Source: Microbacterium tenebrionis (GTDB lineage Bacteria; Actinomycetota; Actinomycetes; Actinomycetales; Microbacteriaceae). Taken from it: a stretch of DNA of 64,000 nucleotides. A program made the position numbers and the translations under genes. The stretch is taken from assembly GCF_903645325.1 (NCBI RefSeq), contig NZ_CAHJXQ010000003.1:62001-126000 (forward strand), in the 5' to 3' direction. Under the pieces are notes generated by a model. That model saw nothing but the letters and a program-made list of their open reading frames with translations. It did not search any database and was not told where the DNA came from. Below are positions 25,837 to 34,792 of this stretch, in pieces (position 1 is the stretch's first letter; each line of letters opens with the position of its first letter).

Positions 25837-27105
25837 GTGACTCCTGCCGCGACCAAGAACACCCGGACGAAGAAGACGACGGCCGAGCCTGACGTCGACG
25901 CCGCAGCCGCGGAAGAGACGGCCCCCGCCGAAGAGACGGCCGCCGCCGACAAGACAGCCACGAAGAAGCCTGCCGCGGCGAAGAAGCCGGCGGCCAATAA
26001 GGCTCCCGCACGCCGCAAGAAGGCGGACGACATCGTCGATCAGGCTCAGGCCGAGGCCGACGTCGTTCCCGAGGACTCCGAGGAGGAGGACAAGAAGCCG
26101 GTCTTCACCGAGCCGCTGCCCACCGGCGCGATCGTCCTGACCTCGAAGGACGAGGACGACGTCCCCGTCTACTCGACCCAGATCACCGGCGCGACAGCCG
26201 ACCCGGTCAAGGACTACCTGAAGCAGATCGGAAAGGTCGCGCTGCTGAACGCGGCCGAAGAGGTCGAGCTCGCGATGCGCATCGAGGCGGGTCTGTTCGC
26301 CGAGGAGAAGCTGTCGGCGATGTCGGCGGCCGAGAAGACCAGCCAGCTCGGGCTCGACCTGCAGTGGGTCGCCCGCGACGGTCAGCGCGCCAAGAGCCAC
26401 CTGCTCGGCGCGAACCTCCGCCTCGTCGTCTCGCTCGCCAAGCGCTACACGGGCCGCGGCATGCAGTTCCTGGATCTGATCCAGGAGGGCAACCTCGGTC
26501 TCATCCGCGCCGTCGAGAAGTTCGACTACACCAAGGGCTTCAAGTTCTCGACCTATGCGACCTGGTGGATCCGTCAGGCGATCACGCGCGCCATGGCCGA
26601 CCAGGCCCGTACGATCCGCATCCCGGTGCACATGGTCGAGGTCATCAACAAGCTCGCCCGCGTTCAGCGGCAGATGCTGCAGGACCTGGGCCGCGAGCCC
26701 ACCCCCGAGGAGCTCAGCCGCGAGCTCGACATGACGCCCGAGAAGGTCGTCGAGGTGCAGAAGTACGGCCGTGAGCCCATCTCGCTGCACACTCCGCTCG
26801 GCGAGGACGGTGACAGCGAGTTCGGTGACCTCATCGAGGACACCGAGGCCGTGGTCCCGGCGGATGCCGTCGGATTCACGATGCTGCAGCGTCAGCTCGA
26901 GCAGCTGCTCGACTCGCTCTCCGAGCGCGAGGCCGGCGTGATCCGCATGCGCTTCGGCCTCGGCGACGGCCAGCCCAAGACCCTCGACCAGATCGGCGAC
27001 ACGTTCGGCGTCACGCGCGAGCGGATCCGCCAGATCGAGTCGAAGACGATGGCGAAGCTGCGCCACCCGAGCCGCTCGCAGTCGCTGCGGGACTACCTCG
27101 AGTGA
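25837..27105 (+). CDS. sigA: Principal RNA polymerase sigma factor (sigma-70, RpoD/HrdB/SigA type)
   Basis: 422 residues. The long N-terminus is rich in Ala, Lys and Glu (residues 1-95), as in actinobacterial principal sigma factors. Region 1.2 is [20 protein letters not shown] (about 122). Region 2 runs from [17 protein letters not shown] through [20 protein letters not shown] to the -10-reading [14 protein letters not shown]. Region 3 follows ([14 protein letters not shown]), and region 4 ends in the -35-reading helix [15 protein letters not shown] 25837 has AAAGG 7 bases upstream. Its stop overlaps the start of the next gene. It is the likely reader of the TANNNT boxes seen throughout the window. 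Confidence 0.94.
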
Positions 27106-27797
27106 TGCAGCCGAACGACGGCAAGGCGCTCGAAGCGAGCGTCGACGGCACGAGCTACGCGCGCATCCCGCTGAAGACTAGGGTCGTCATGCCCGATGAC
27201 GACCTGGATGCCGTGATCACCGAGTACGCCGCGGACGCGGTCGAGCCGGGGGACATCCTCTTCGTCACCGAGAAGATCGTCGCGATCACGCAGGGGCGCT
27301 CCTACCGCCTCGACGAGATCCAGCCCCGGAGGCTCGCGCTGTTCCTCTCGAAGTACGTCACGCGCACTCCGCACGGGATCGGCCTCGGCATGCCGGAGAC
27401 GATGGAGATGGCGTTGCGGGAGTGCGGCACGCCGCGCATCCTGTTCGCCGCAGCCGTGGCCGCCTTCACGAAGGCGTTCGGCCGCAAGGGGGACTTCTAC
27501 CGCATCGCCGGCGACAAGGCCCGTGCGATCGACGGCCCGACCTCGGGGACGATCCCGCCCTACAACCAGGCCGTCGTCCTGGGTCCGACCGACCCGAAGG
27601 GCGTCGCCGCTCACGTCAAGACGCTGATCGGCGGGAAGGCGGACGTCGCCGTCGTCGACATCAACGACCTCGGCGGCAACATCCTGGGTTCGACGCTCGA
27701 TCGTGCCGGCGAGGATCGTCTGGTGCGCATCCTGAAGGACAATCCGCTCGGACAGGGGCACCAGTCGACCCCGATGGGCATCATCCGCGCCGCCTGA
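27105..27797 (+). CDS. Coenzyme F420-0:L-glutamate ligase-like protein (CofE/FbiB-N fold)
   Basis: 230 residues. The CofE-type fold is shown by IPLKTRVVMPDDDLDAVITE, GDILFVTEKIVAITQGR (about 50), GIGLGMPETMEMAL, GDFYRIAGDKARAIDGPTSG (about 128), and the metal-site segment VVDINDLGGNILG near 180. True CofE adds glutamates to F420-0; actinobacterial stand-alone relatives may act on other substrates, and no other F420 gene is in the window. The ATG overlaps the sigA stop (TGATG); a GTG at 27102 is also possible. The stop overlaps the murJ ATG. sigA, this gene and murJ therefore form a tightly coupled operon. Confidence 0.75.
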   Translation: MQPNDGKALEASVDGTSYARIPLKTRVVMPDDDLDAVITEYAADAVEPGDILFVTEKIVAITQGRSYRLDEIQPRRLALFLSKYVTRTPHGIGLGMPETMEMALRECGTPRILFAAAVAAFTKAFGRKGDFYRIAGDKARAIDGPTSGTIPPYNQAVVLGPTDPKGVAAHVKTLIGGKADVAVVDINDLGGNILGSTLDRAGEDRLVRILKDNPLGQGHQSTPMGIIRAA

Positions 27798-29380
27798 TGG
27801 GGATCGGACGCGCCAGCGCTGTGATTGCAGCCGGGACCCTGGTGTCCCGGCTCACCGGTCTGCTGCGCGCCGTCGTGCTCGTGGCGGCGATCGGCTCCGT
27901 CGGCAAGGCGTCGGACGCATTCGCGGTCGCGAATCAGCTGCCGAATAGCATCTACCAGGTCATTTCCGCCGGAGTCCTCACCGGAGTGATCGTGCCTCAG
28001 GTGGTCAGGGCCAGTGCGCAGAAGGACGGCGGCCATGCCTTCCTCGCGAAACTGCTGACCCTCGGCACGATCATCGTCGGCTCGATCACGCTCGTGGCGA
28101 CGATCGGAGCGCCGCTGCTGATCGACCTGTACGCCCCGGGCTTCGGCCCTGAGCAGTCGGCCCTGGCGGTCCGCTTCGCGTACTGGTGCGTGCCCCAGCT
28201 GTTCTTCTACGGGATGTTCGCGCTGCTGGGGGAGATCCTCAACGCCCGCCGCGTGTTCGGCCCGTACGCGTGGGCGCCGATCATCAACAACATCGTCTCG
28301 ATCGCCGGATTCGCACTGTTCATGGTCCTGTTCGGCCAGAGCCGTGCAGGTCTCAACGGCTGGAGCACGGAGATGATCACGCTGCTGGCGGGGGCGGCGA
28401 CCCTCGGCGTGGTCGCGCAGACCGTGGTGCTGCTCCTGTTCTGGCGCCGGATCGGCATCCCGCTGCGACTCGACTTCCAATGGCGCGGCATGGGCCTCGG
28501 CCACATGGGCAAGCTCGCGTTCTGGACGTTCCTGACCACGCTCGCCGGTCAGGTGGTCGGGCTCGTGCAGTCCAGGGTGATCACTCCCGCGTCGGGGGAG
28601 AACGCCTCTGTCGCGGCATCCCAATACACCTGGCTCGTCTTCATGGTCGCCTATTCCACGATCGTCCTCGCAATCGGCACTCCGTACTTCACCCGGATCA
28701 GCGAGCACGCGGCTGCCGAGAAGCACGAGGAGCTGCGCGAGACGGCCCGACAGGCGATCCGGATCCTCGGGCTGCTGGTGATCGTCGCGACGGCCGCGAT
28801 CGCGGTCGCCTCGGTCCCGGCGGCGCGGATCTTCAGCAGCTCGGCCGACGAGGCGGTGCTCATAGCGCCCGTCCTCCTCGCCTACCTGGTCAGCCTGCTG
28901 CCCCTCGCCGTCCTCTTCATCGTCCAGCGCACGTTCTACGCCTACGGCGACGCGCGCACTCCGTTCGTCTACACACTCATCCAGGCGGCGCTGCTCGTCG
29001 TGCTGACTCTCGTGGTCGCCGTGACGACGCCGCTCGAACAGCGTGCGGCGATGGTCGCGCTCGCTCAATCGGTGGCGAGCACGGTTCAGACCGTCATCGC
29101 GGCGGTCATGCTCAGGCGGAAGTTCGGCTCGTTCGGTCTCGGCGGCACGATGCTGGCCCTCGGACGCTTCGTCCTGCTCGCGATTCCGGCCGCAGGCGCG
29201 GGGTGGGGGCTCTTCCTGCTGATGGGGAGTGTCGACGGCTGGATGCTCGACGGCATGCTGCAGGGGGCGCTGGGAGCGGCGCTCATCGCCGGTGTCACGG
29301 GCATCGTGTTCGTCGCGCTGCTGGCGCTGTTCCGCGTGCCGGAGCTGACGACCGCGATCCGGATGCTGCGCCGCCGCTGA
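27797..29380 (+). CDS. murJ: Lipid II flippase MurJ-like
   Basis: 527 residues with about 14 hydrophobic helices, the MATE-like MOP fold of MurJ/MviN, which moves the peptidoglycan precursor lipid II across the membrane. Visible motifs: ASAVIAAGTLVSRLTGLLRA at the N-terminus, ANQLPNSIYQVISAGVLTGV (about 45-65) and FYAYGDARTPFVYTLIQA (about 380). There is no long C-terminal pseudokinase extension of the mycobacterial type. ATG 27797 overlaps the upstream stop. The full-length MVIN signature and size make MurJ more likely than another MOP flippase. Confidence 0.87.
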   Translation: MGIGRASAVIAAGTLVSRLTGLLRAVVLVAAIGSVGKASDAFAVANQLPNSIYQVISAGVLTGVIVPQVVRASAQKDGGHAFLAKLLTLGTIIVGSITLVATIGAPLLIDLYAPGFGPEQSALAVRFAYWCVPQLFFYGMFALLGEILNARRVFGPYAWAPIINNIVSIAGFALFMVLFGQSRAGLNGWSTEMITLLAGAATLGVVAQTVVLLLFWRRIGIPLRLDFQWRGMGLGHMGKLAFWTFLTTLAGQVVGLVQSRVITPASGENASVAASQYTWLVFMVAYSTIVLAIGTPYFTRISEHAAAEKHEELRETARQAIRILGLLVIVATAAIAVASVPAARIFSSSADEAVLIAPVLLAYLVSLLPLAVLFIVQRTFYAYGDARTPFVYTLIQAALLVVLTLVVAVTTPLEQRAAMVALAQSVASTVQTVIAAVMLRRKFGSFGLGGTMLALGRFVLLAIPAAGAGWGLFLLMGSVDGWMLDGMLQGALGAALIAGVTGIVFVALLALFRVPELTTAIRMLRRR

Positions 29381-29402: not shown

Positions 29403-30428
29403 TCAGAACCCGATCGCTGCGCGGTAGCGGGGTTTGTTGCCGGTGCGGATTCCCGAAACCGACGGCTTGTTCTCGTACACGCCCGCACCCCAGTTGCCCT
29501 CGACGAGCACAGGGCCGTCCGGGCCCACGACGATGTCCCAGCCCACGTACTGGATCTGGGGAACGACGCGCGCGACGGTGTCGACGAACGCGACCACCTC
29601 GTCGAACAGCGGCAACTGGAAATCGGCGATGCGGAATCCGGAGTCTGGGTGGTCGACGTGCACGTGGCCGTGCGAGTCGTAGCCGGCCGAGCGGGCGTGA
29701 CCGGTCTCGGGGTCGAGCATCGTGTAGAAGCCGCCGAAGGACATCTGATCGCTGACCTCGCCGCGGCCGAACTTCTGCGCGACGGCGAGGATGTGGGTCT
29801 TCTGCCCGTCGAAGAACGCGGTCACCCGAGTGGTGTTCACGGTCTCCGGGCAGACGGCCGCGAGGTCGTCGTGCTGCGAGATGACCTGCTCGATGACGAC
29901 CTCGCCGCGCTCGAACAGTCCGCTGTGGAACCCGGCCCAGTCGGAGACGTCGGCCGCGTGATAGCGCTTGACGCCGCTGCCGGCCTGCCCCATGCGGGTC
30001 TTGGCGATGATCGTGCCGTGCTTGCGGGTGAACTCCTCGAGCTCCGCGGCGTTGCCGGCGGTCACTTCGAGCCATTCGCGGCGCAGGTACTTGTCGAAGC
30101 GGCGGTTGAACTCGAGCTTGTCGTGGAAGATGTGACGGTACGGTTCGGCGTCGTAGCGCTGCGAGAGTTGGTTCGACACCGGGTGTGTCATGTACGTCGC
30201 GCGCTCGGCGGCGGTCAGCATCGCGAAGTCGTAGTCGACGTAGTCCTGGAACCCGACGTTCTTGGACGCAGCGCTCCAGAGCATGTCGACGACCACGAGC
30301 GGAACAGCCTTGCCGTGCTGATCGCGCACCTCGCGGGCGCGCTCGAACACCGATCCGACATCGATGCGGCGAGCGCGGTCAATGAGGTATCGCAGGCGGG
30401 GCATGACGCCGAGGCCCTGGGCAGGCAT
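29403..30428 (-). CDS. ATP-grasp protein of the sugar-transfer-associated type
   Basis: 341 residues. The C-terminal two-thirds has an ATP-grasp pattern: GTIIAKTRMGQAGSGVKRY (about 138-157), GEVVIEQVISQH (about 173), NTTRVTAFFDGQ (about 196) and the final QYVGWDIVVGPDGPVLVEGN (about 290-310). The residues that coordinate magnesium (VLVEGNWGAG) are kept. Proteins of PF14397 (ATPgrasp_ST) are found with polysaccharide and cell-wall genes; the substrate is unknown. It lies convergently to murJ and divergently from the racemase-like pair, which also suggests a cell-envelope role. Confidence 0.75.
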   Translation of the reverse strand: MPAQGLGVMPRLRYLIDRARRIDVGSVFERAREVRDQHGKAVPLVVVDMLWSAASKNVGFQDYVDYDFAMLTAAERATYMTHPVSNQLSQRYDAEPYRHIFHDKLEFNRRFDKYLRREWLEVTAGNAAELEEFTRKHGTIIAKTRMGQAGSGVKRYHAADVSDWAGFHSGLFERGEVVIEQVISQHDDLAAVCPETVNTTRVTAFFDGQKTHILAVAQKFGRGEVSDQMSFGGFYTMLDPETGHARSAGYDSHGHVHVDHPDSGFRIADFQLPLFDEVVAFVDTVARVVPQIQYVGWDIVVGPDGPVLVEGNWGAGVYENKPSVSGIRTGNKPRYRAAIGF

Positions 30429-30514: not shown

Positions 30515-30520
30515 TAGACT
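30515..30520 (+). promoter_or_regulatory. -10 box for the leaderless racemase-like gene
   Basis: TAGACT is 6 bases before GTG 30527. Confidence 0.55.
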
Positions 30521-30526
30521 CGACGG

Positions 30527-31231
30527 GTGGTCATTCCTCGCAGCACGGCGACGCGCGCCGTGATCTCCCGCTCGGTCCTGGCCGCACACGCGAAGAGCCT
30601 CGTGGAAGACGGCGGCCGCGTCGCCGATCTGCGCAGGGACGCGTACGGGCACGGCCTGCTCACCGTGGCGCGAGAGGTGCTGCTCGCGGGTGCGGACAGC
30701 GTGCGCGTCGATGACGAGGACGCGGTGCGGATGCTGAGCGCCGAGGGCCTCAGCGCGAGCGTGACCGCCGAGCCGGACATGGACCCGGCCGTGCTGTACG
30801 GCTTCCCGGCCGAGACCGGCACGCACCAGCGCCCGGCGATGCGCCTGACCGGGCGGGTGATGTCCACCAAGCCGCTGCGCCTGGGCGAGGCCGTCTCCTA
30901 CGGCTACACGCACCGCGCGGAGCGGGACACGACGGTCGCGCTCGTGACGGGCGGATACGCGCAGGCCGTCGTGCGGGCGCTCGGCAACCGCGCTCACGTC
31001 GAACTGAACGGGCGTGCGCACCCGATCGTCGGGCGCGTGGCCATGGACGTGTGCGTGATCGACCTGGAGTCGCCGGATGCCTCAGCTGACGAAGGCGACG
31101 AGGTGACCTATTTCGGGGGCGCGGGCCCTGCGCGAGGCTTCCTCGCGGAGTGGATGTCGGCGACCGGGCTCACTGCAGCGGAACTCGCCTGCGCTGCAGG
31201 GCTCCACGCCACGAGGACCGAGGAGGACTGA
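30527..31231 (+). CDS. Alanine racemase-like protein lacking the PLP lysine (C-terminal domain retained)
   Basis: 234 residues, against 360-390 for a normal alanine racemase. The start of the TIM barrel is recognisable, but the PLP-binding lysine of the family motif (KADAYGHG) is arginine here: RRDAYGHG, residues 36-43. About 150 residues of the barrel are absent. From residue 105 the C-terminal beta-domain is well kept: LRLGEAVSYGYTHRAERDTT with the catalytic tyrosine at about residue 125, and IVGRVAMDVCVIDL (about 167-180). It cannot bind PLP in the normal way by itself. The next gene starts immediately after its stop and has the complementary residues, so a hetero-oligomeric racemase is plausible (inference). 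Confidence 0.8.
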   Translation: MVIPRSTATRAVISRSVLAAHAKSLVEDGGRVADLRRDAYGHGLLTVAREVLLAGADSVRVDDEDAVRMLSAEGLSASVTAEPDMDPAVLYGFPAETGTHQRPAMRLTGRVMSTKPLRLGEAVSYGYTHRAERDTTVALVTGGYAQAVVRALGNRAHVELNGRAHPIVGRVAMDVCVIDLESPDASADEGDEVTYFGGAGPARGFLAEWMSATGLTAAELACAAGLHATRTEED

Positions 31232-32251
31232 ATGCCCGCGCGCCTCGAGATCAGCACGAGCATCTTCCGCGACAACGTCAGGGCCGTCATGGCGCGCGTC
31301 GCGCCGGGCGAGATGATGCTCGTCACCAAGGACGACGCCTACGGGCACGGCCTGGAGTGGGCGGTGCGGGAGGCGCACACCGTCGGCGCGCGCTGGATCG
31401 GGTCCTACGACGTGCCGTCGGCGCTACGGGTCCGGGCCCTTCTGCCCGACGTCCGCATCTTCGCGTGGGAGACGTCGTCGGCCGATGAGGTCGCCGAGGC
31501 GATCCGAGCCGGCGTCGATCTCGGTGTCGGCACAGCCGGGTATCTGCGACGCGTCATCGACGAGGCGGAGCGGAGCGGGCGCCGTGCCCTGGTCCACCTG
31601 AAGATCGACACGGGGCTGCATCGCAATGGCATCCGGCCCGAGAACTGGGCAGATGTCGTCATCGAGGCGCGGCGCGCCGAGGATGCCGGTCTGCTCCACG
31701 TCGCGGGGGTGTGGAGTCATCTCGCGGAGGCGAGTGATGACGAGGACGACGCCGCGCGGGGCGAGTTCGCCCACGCCGTCGCCGTCCTCCGGGACGCCGG
31801 CGGGACGCCGGAGCACCTGCACCTGACCGCATCCGCCGCATCCTGGGCGCGTCCCGAGCTGCGCGGCACGCTGAGCCGGATCGGCGCCTTCTGCTACGGC
31901 GTCCGCTCCGCGGACGGCCCCGAACTCGATGGCATCAGGCCCGCCGCATCGCTTCGTGCCGACATCGTGGACGTGCAGGACGATCGCGTGAGGATCGACG
32001 TGGGAGCGCTGGACGGGCTGCCCTCGAATCTGGCCGGTGCGGTCCTGGGCGGACCGGACGCGCCGCGGATCCTGCGCGTGGACGGGACCTGGACAGAACT
32101 CAGCGGCTGGGCAGGGGCTTCAGCAGGCGACGGCGTCACCGTCTTCGGCGGGGACGCCGCGAGCGCGACCGACCTGGCCGAGCGCATCGACACGGTCGGT
32201 GAGGAGATCCTCACCCGCGTGTCGCCGCTGGTTCCCCGCAGATACAGCTGA
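31232..32251 (+). CDS. Alanine racemase-like protein with PLP lysine but degenerate C-terminal domain
   Basis: 339 residues. The N-terminal TIM barrel is complete: the PLP lysine is K33 in LVTKDDAYGHG, and ALVHLKIDTGLHRNGI (about 118-133) and WSHLAEASDDED (about 165) are the usual barrel motifs. The C-terminal part starts normally (SLRADIVDVQ, about 240) but lacks the SYG segment that carries the second catalytic base, and replaces the GRVCMD-type region with unrelated sequence. In alanine racemase dimers each active site uses the lysine of one chain and the tyrosine of the other; the upstream partner supplies that tyrosine. ATG 31232 directly follows the upstream stop. The substrate could be alanine or another amino acid; this cannot be told. 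Confidence 0.82.
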   Translation: MPARLEISTSIFRDNVRAVMARVAPGEMMLVTKDDAYGHGLEWAVREAHTVGARWIGSYDVPSALRVRALLPDVRIFAWETSSADEVAEAIRAGVDLGVGTAGYLRRVIDEAERSGRRALVHLKIDTGLHRNGIRPENWADVVIEARRAEDAGLLHVAGVWSHLAEASDDEDDAARGEFAHAVAVLRDAGGTPEHLHLTASAASWARPELRGTLSRIGAFCYGVRSADGPELDGIRPAASLRADIVDVQDDRVRIDVGALDGLPSNLAGAVLGGPDAPRILRVDGTWTELSGWAGASAGDGVTVFGGDAASATDLAERIDTVGEEILTRVSPLVPRRYS

Positions 32252-32519: not shown

Positions 32520-32687
32520 CTGGGTGCCTCCTCGGGTATCGGCTTGTCGTTCGGGAATGTGCTCAATACAACCACGCCGGGCTGGGAGTCATGCCCGGAA
32601 GACGGCGTGTTTCGCTCACCGCGTACGCGGCGGCCCGGGTCCAGGCGCACAGGGGAGTGTCTGCGGGCCGGCAGGTGCATGCGCGAA

Positions 32688-32693
32688 TAGAAT
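32688..32693 (+). promoter_or_regulatory. -10 box for parE
   Basis: TAGAAT, 8 bases before the GTG at 32702, suggests a leaderless or near-leaderless transcript. Confidence 0.5.
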
Positions 32694-32701
32694 CGATCCT
32701 T

Positions 32702-34792
<2,091 letters not shown>

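Follow-up and report, generated by a model that had tools for sequence, protein, structure and literature searches.

Known alanine racemases (Alr) are homodimers with two active sites, in which the catalytic tyrosine of a site is contributed by the partner subunit and in which the second lysine is carbamylated. The racemases Bar and BsrV act on basic amino acids. The gene pair analysed here, g1 and g2, resembles Alr (PF01168 and PF00842; PDB 1xfc, 5fac, 1sft) in the folds of both subunits, in the PLP-lysine motif of g2 and in the SYG tyrosine of g1, but the pair would make one site from two unlike subunits. Bar (4dyj), BsrV (7agz) and the lysine racemase 4dza, which by its title also acts on a basic amino acid, have the same fold as g2, but they are single complete polypeptides, and the similarity of g2 to these structures (Z 32.5-33.6) is below that to actinobacterial Alrs (Z 41.2).

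A dependence of activity on a degenerate paralogue is the principle that the pair would share with the prozyme-type enzymes of trypanosomatids, whose fold and chemistry differ from those of Alr. The trypanosomatid deoxyhypusine synthase is described as a duplicated enzyme whose activity depends on a paralogue that is itself catalytically dead (PMC3663545), and two further articles concern such enzymes with dead paralogues in these organisms, AdoMetDC among them (PMC6221367, PMC5201418). The difference is that in g1-g2 both copies have lost complementary parts, and that tandem complete relatives survive. Judged by title and start of the abstract, we found no report of such a heterodimeric split Alr in the literature searched.

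Gene pair and complementary active-site residues

The window, i.e. the whole stretch of 64,000 nucleotides that was analysed, contains the pair and its neighbours in the following arrangement:

27102 to 27797, forward strand: F420-0:gamma-glutamyl ligase-like gene (CofE-like, PF01996), upstream of MurJ and part of the same conserved locus
27800 to 29380, forward strand: MurJ lipid II flippase, start approximate
29403 to 30428, reverse strand: ATP-grasp protein (PF14397), divergent neighbour of the pair and candidate cross-bridge ligase
30515 to 30520, forward strand: TAGACT, a -10-like element that ends 6 nt 5' of the g1 GTG and may belong to a leaderless promoter
30527 to 31231, forward strand: g1, truncated Alr-like subunit, 234 aa, GTG start, with R36 at the PLP-lysine site and with Y125 (SYG), Y144, M173 and D174 kept
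31232 to 32251, forward strand: g2, PLP-site subunit, 339 aa, with K33, Y37, K124, R131, H163, S201 and R216 kept and the SYG segment deleted
32640 to 34792, forward strand: topoisomerase subunit B-like gene, start approximate, which we take to be ParE; locus marker across the family

An earlier note on this DNA had placed the two reading frames at these positions with no gap between them, and this is indeed the case: the genes lie in frame and head to tail, and the TGA of g1 directly abuts the ATG of g2. In 64 of the 70 loci of the genus set (three repeats included) and in 38 of the 44 pairs from other genera, a g2 start with a 4-base overlap onto g1 is available, the choice of start in this count itself having favoured the 4-base spacing. 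The claim that the genes share a leaderless promoter is plausible, the element itself being present 6 nt 5' of the g1 GTG, and in 49 of 67 loci a TANNNT motif is found 4-9 nt upstream of a candidate start of g1. Among these, the 40 loci listed have a spacing of 6 or 7 nt, and the background within g1 and g2, a soft control, is 0.0007 per random position.

The residues of both proteins were compared by alignment with 14 complete Microbacterium Alrs. The division of the active site that the earlier note had described for the window is found again in this comparison: in g1, the PLP lysine is replaced by an arginine (R36), and the catalytic tyrosine (Y125) as well as M173 are kept; in g2, K33 is kept and the SYG tyrosine is missing. 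Throughout the genus set, which comprises Microbacterium, Microcella and two MAGs and was freed of repeats, the position of the PLP lysine in g1 is taken by Arg or another residue, and the partner-side Tyr, Tyr, Met and Asp are present in 64 of 64 proteins. All 67 g2 proteins of the set have the Lys, Tyr, Arg, His, Ser and Arg of the PLP side, 66 of them also have the second lysine, and none has the SYG tyrosine. The 44 pairs from other genera show the same pattern. Their g1 proteins all have the Tyr and the Met and never the PLP lysine, with the second Tyr replaced by Phe in seven and the Asp by Asn in seven, and their g2 proteins have all seven PLP-side residues in 44 of 44 cases and the SYG tyrosine in none. 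These counts exclude L088, L092 and L093, which are second copies of L087, L061 and L067, as well as the fused L177, and those of g1 also exclude L060, L062 and L090, in which the full g1 start is absent. Both the PLP lysine and the catalytic tyrosine are found across the pair, and neither protein has both; against a mean column identity of 46% for g1 and 61% for g2, the sets of catalytic Tyr and Lys residues do not vary. Residue numbers of Alr (e.g. K39, Y265) and the assignment of residues to subunits we take to be those of the Geobacillus enzyme.

In domain searches, g1 matches Ala_racemase_C alone (98.5 bits), and g2 matches Ala_racemase_N (148 bits) and weakly Ala_racemase_C (27.7 bits). 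The NCBIfam model TIGR00492 gives 97.9 bits for g1 and 113 bits for g2, both below its cut-off of 168, and with these scores and with catalytic residues divided over two proteins, neither gene product is a canonical one-chain Alr. The subunits were folded separately. The predicted structure of g2 (pLDDT 94.2, pTM 0.91) aligns with solved Alrs over all 339 residues (Z 41.2, rmsd 1.9 A), i.e. it has the TIM barrel and the C-terminal beta domain of the Alr fold in full length. The assertion of the earlier note that g2 lacks the C-terminal domain was therefore wrong, and according to the model the losses of g2 are limited to the SYG segment and partner-side residues, the C domain being present. 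For g1, it had correctly been noted that most of the barrel is gone and the C domain is kept, as the predicted structure (pLDDT 91.7; Z 21.4 across 228 residues in comparison with Alr) consists of a barrel remnant and the C domain.

The two genes also appear to be coupled in their evolution. Over 62 loci, the distances of g1 and g2 have a partial correlation of r 0.36 when parE is given (0 of 999 permutations), in a test that corrects for relatedness through parE only; the plain distance correlations are 0.79 for g1-g2 and 0.83 and 0.81 for each of them with parE, so that the value for g1-g2 is no higher. Here, as in the TANNNT counts, L088, L092 and L093 were removed. Between the window and its close relative L074, dN/dS is about 0.18 for g1 and for g2, i.e. 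both are under purifying selection. Simple counting in distant pairs gives medians of 0.52 and 0.47 and values up to 0.98, but dN/dS of distant pairs is unreliable at such G+C, and only close pairs are thus relied on.

Spread, intermediate forms and descent

The pair is conserved: 48 of the 59 genomes of the genus possess it, as do at least 27 further genera of the family. A separate complete alr exists in the host genome, where a frame of 372 aa carries both Alr domains. All 47 genus loci that were fetched contain g1 and g2, and the two lie side by side in 70 of 72 scanned sequences (the window and 71 loci), which excludes chance. The remaining 11 genus genomes are without both genes; ten of them are at least 99% complete, and one, G046, is 81% complete. 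Best scores with the g2 profile are at most 200 bits in these pair-lacking genomes versus at least 477 bits for the pairs of the genus. With G046 left out, no relics of g1 or g2 were found in 11 stretches from the ten other pair-lacking genomes (best tblastn E 0.026). On a single-gene parE tree, these ten genomes fall into three separate groups among pair-bearing genomes, and g1 and g2 thus seem to have been lost jointly at least three times.

When g2 was searched order-wide in 297 genomes, the best match outside the family, among the matches listed and judged by score only, had 247 bits, and of the 13 genus genomes among the matches listed, nine reached at least 493 bits. One match within the same genus (G610:C4:1393540-1394562) has 261 bits with the g2 profile, a score between those of pairs and complete Alrs. 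Among the matches listed, a single one, near E 1e-56, belongs to G524, and none at E 1e-55 belongs to G558 or G628. In M. stercoris NEAU-LLB, identical 12.6-kb copies of the locus lie on two scaffolds (L087, L088), which is either an assembly duplicate or a recent duplication.

Outside the genus, 60 loci of the family comprise 44 split pairs from 27 genera, ten tandem complete Alrs and six single complete Alrs; since these loci were picked by score, 27 genera are a lower bound. Across the family, scores by themselves fail to separate pairs from complete Alrs, for which the g2 profile gives up to 268 bits, and only fetched loci were therefore classified. Depending on the genus, g1 has between about 135 and 374 aa: it is full-length (345-374 aa) and devoid of the PLP lysine in L130 and L153, has about 310 aa in L154-L156, and in the other split loci is either of window-like length or reduced to the C domain (about 135-157 aa). 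In a single case the two genes are fused:

L177, 5685-7673, reverse strand: g1-g2 fusion in one open frame, start uncertain, the two parts joined by some 60 linker residues

In phylogenetic trees, g2 clusters with the second genes of tandem Alrs (support 0.996), and one type of tandem complete Alrs has a first gene that is sister to the barrels of full-length g1 (0.905) as well as to all C-domains of g1 (0.968). The natural reading of these sequence relationships is that the pair descended from a tandem duplication of alr, followed by complementary loss. Complete second tandem genes are nested among g2 in the barrel tree, with weak support, and the C-domain tree places five g2 C-domains apart from the remaining g2, which suggests that the tyrosine of g2 was perhaps lost repeatedly, or that the trees are noisy. 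Curtobacterium ammoniigenes has tandem complete Alrs only, and the split pair is thus not the sole route in the family.

Two groups of unusual Alr forms were also seen in the family. In the tandem complete Alrs of L157, L158, L167, L168, L182 and L183, the second lysine is lost in both copies and the second copy reads SYDY; these tandem Alrs are possibly two-site heterodimers. In five genomes of one family genus (G107, G176, G230, G278, G320), the best Alr-type barrel lies within frames of 745-789 aa, which are perhaps fusions, and no C domain was found there with the g1 profile at E 1e-25.

Neighbouring genes and cell-wall chemistry

The locus is marked by parE. Of the 69 loci of the genus set, three repeats included, 68 have it inside the stretch that was fetched, and so have 43 of the 44 split loci elsewhere, the exception L164 being a short stretch of 7.4 kb. 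Next to the pair, there are two unrelated ligase-type modules. In a count of 112 loci that includes three repeat loci and for which a MurT or a GatD match sufficed, an ATP-grasp gene, as a rule accompanied by a CofE-like one, adjoins the pair on either side in 65 loci, and MurT and/or GatD in 39; eight have neither module, and the two never occur together. The window and L095, both with an ATP-grasp gene, stand outside this count; L155 belongs to the MurT/GatD class by a weak 72-bit MurT match, and L155 and L162 have no GatD match. When 22 genus genomes were searched whole, MurT was found only in the four without an ATP-grasp gene.

MurT acts on the alpha-carboxyl of D-Glu. As stated in PDB titles, it is a component of the lipid II isoglutaminyl synthase, and a homologue of MurT or GatD from this system (PDB 6gs2, 6fqb, 7q8e, 9sq9) lies beside the pair in the 39 loci mentioned. 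Known GatD has a catalytic cysteine, but this cysteine is absent in 37 of 37 GatD-like proteins above 55 bits at these loci, which have Gly, Ala or Ser instead. The Cys-less GatD is accompanied by MurT beside the pair in L036 (3728-5742) and 36 other loci, either upstream, or downstream and convergent. As unrelated ligase-type modules are swapped at one place, one common job is suggested, which would be at the D-Glu cross-bridge. A part of the CofE-like protein (27102-27797) in wall synthesis is possible.

Of the ten pair-lacking genomes examined at this locus, all have the CofE-like gene next to parE, and nine have an ATP-grasp gene there too, which in four cases is present as two tandem copies. 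The tenth, G012, has two ATP-grasp genes elsewhere. In L217, L218, L221 and L223, the tandem ATP-grasp pair lies directly 5' of parE, at the site of the racemase pair of relatives.

The walls of Microbacterium contain D-Orn, L-Lys or Dab, with D-Orn and L-Lys species within single clades, and the diamino acid of the wall is used in taxonomy (PMC10757982). For other genera of the family, B-type walls with D-Lys, D-Orn or Dab and some L-forms are described (PMC7033078), and the wall peptides D-Ala-D-Dab and Gly-D-Glu for Rhodoluna (PMC4156110). M. suaedae carries the g1-g2 pair, and M. indicum has a g2 match of 477 bits in a search for g2 only; both species are among the D-Orn members of their clade (PMC10757982). 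M. kunmingense is tabulated with Lys (PMC10978784) and carries the pair (L093), which breaks a strict link to D-Orn in this species, unless the Lys has the D form or was wrongly assayed. For the Microbacterium strain described in that same article itself, L-ornithine is given (PMC10978784). The guess of the earlier note that the pair is a dedicated diamino-acid racemase fits the locus, as the neighbours come from cell-wall families, and such a substrate would be in line with them. Among the literature matches listed, none named genes for the group B peptidoglycan cross-bridge, and in the literature searched we found no paper that joins MurT, GatD and Microbacterium.

A proposed single-site heterodimer and its alternatives

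That the two proteins complement each other in one active site, the central idea of the earlier note, is strongly supported by the comparison, i.e. by invariant residues, intermediates, joint presence and absence, coupling, one fusion and some covariation. With high probability, as far as can be told from sequence, g1 and g2 therefore share a composite active site. We further consider it rather likely that the pair is an obligate heterodimeric racemase with a single site, which arose from the decay of tandem alr genes and serves to make the D-diamino acid of the group B bridge. The observed part of this explanation is the complementary sequence, the conservation, the joint absence, the kinship with tandem Alrs and the content of the locus, and from this we infer the complex, its catalysis, its substrate and the roles of the ligases.

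Mechanistically, g1 and g2 would form an obligate heterodimer, an amino-acid racemase of fold-type III that depends on PLP and has only one, composite site. PLP would be bound on K33 of g2, which would also supply the Arg and the His of the PLP side, and the catalytic tyrosine Y125 would be provided in trans by g1, together with M173. The mirror-image site would be dead, because g1 is without the PLP lysine and has little barrel, and g2 is without the tyrosine. Tandem complete alr genes would have turned into such a pair by complementary degeneration. The likely product would be a D-diamino acid of the cross-bridge, namely D-ornithine, and in some lineages perhaps D-Dab or D-Lys, and the bridge amino acids may be joined to the D-Glu alpha-carboxyl by the ATP-grasp protein, or elsewhere by MurT and the Cys-less GatD.

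Which other explanations could account for the pair? The same composite-site heterodimer could act on another substrate or in another pathway (e.g. on Ala, Ser or Glu, or for a secreted D-amino acid), with cell-wall genes as incidental neighbours. The sequence gives no substrate and M. kunmingense, a species with Lys, has the pair, but we regard this alternative as unlikely, since mutually exclusive, unrelated ligase-type modules occur at the same locus, since Ala is already served by the complete alr, and since D-Orn, D-Lys or Dab are known, beside L-forms, from B-type walls in the family (PMC7033078, PMC4156110). As each subunit is degenerate by itself, g1 and g2 might also form a regulator or a PLP-binding scaffold without catalysis; however, it would be very surprising for a non-catalytic complex to keep the Tyr and Lys sets invariant at the mean column identities given above, and to show the purifying selection seen on both genes between the window and L074.

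Since a canonical alr is present in the same genome, g1 and g2 could each dimerise with canonical Alr instead of with each other, but such mixed dimers are hardly to be expected in view of the g1-g2 adjacency, the joint absence and the one g1-g2 fusion. The loss of most of the barrel from g1, and its variable length between genera, might finally be seen as signs of a decaying pseudogene fragment next to a g2 that is an independent racemase. This is scarcely credible with the Tyr and Met of g1 invariant in 108 of 108 proteins, with low dN/dS in close relatives and a confident fold, and with a g2 from which the catalytic Tyr is absent.

If the single-site heterodimer is real, it would add a new design to an enzyme family known from every textbook: a former homodimer that has become an obligate single-site heterodimer, and of which tandem and intermediate relatives would still be alive in sister genera. 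The complementary degeneration of a shared active site would thereby become directly testable, and candidate genes for the group B peptidoglycan cross-bridge would be at hand. A more far-reaching reading, which we put forward tentatively and with some doubt, is that the locus represents the missing group B peptidoglycan cassette, composed of the heterodimeric racemase and two interchangeable, unrelated ligase modules. The ligase module would then attach either the D-diamino acid or the bridge residue that precedes it to the D-Glu alpha-carboxyl. One module would be MurT with a glutaminase-dead GatD, in which the ammonia supply was lost, and the other would be the ATP-grasp protein with a CofE-like partner.

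As a separate observation, the genome G280 has two split pairs with different g1 types within 8 kb (L156, 4678-12532), and two ATP-grasp frames lie between them.
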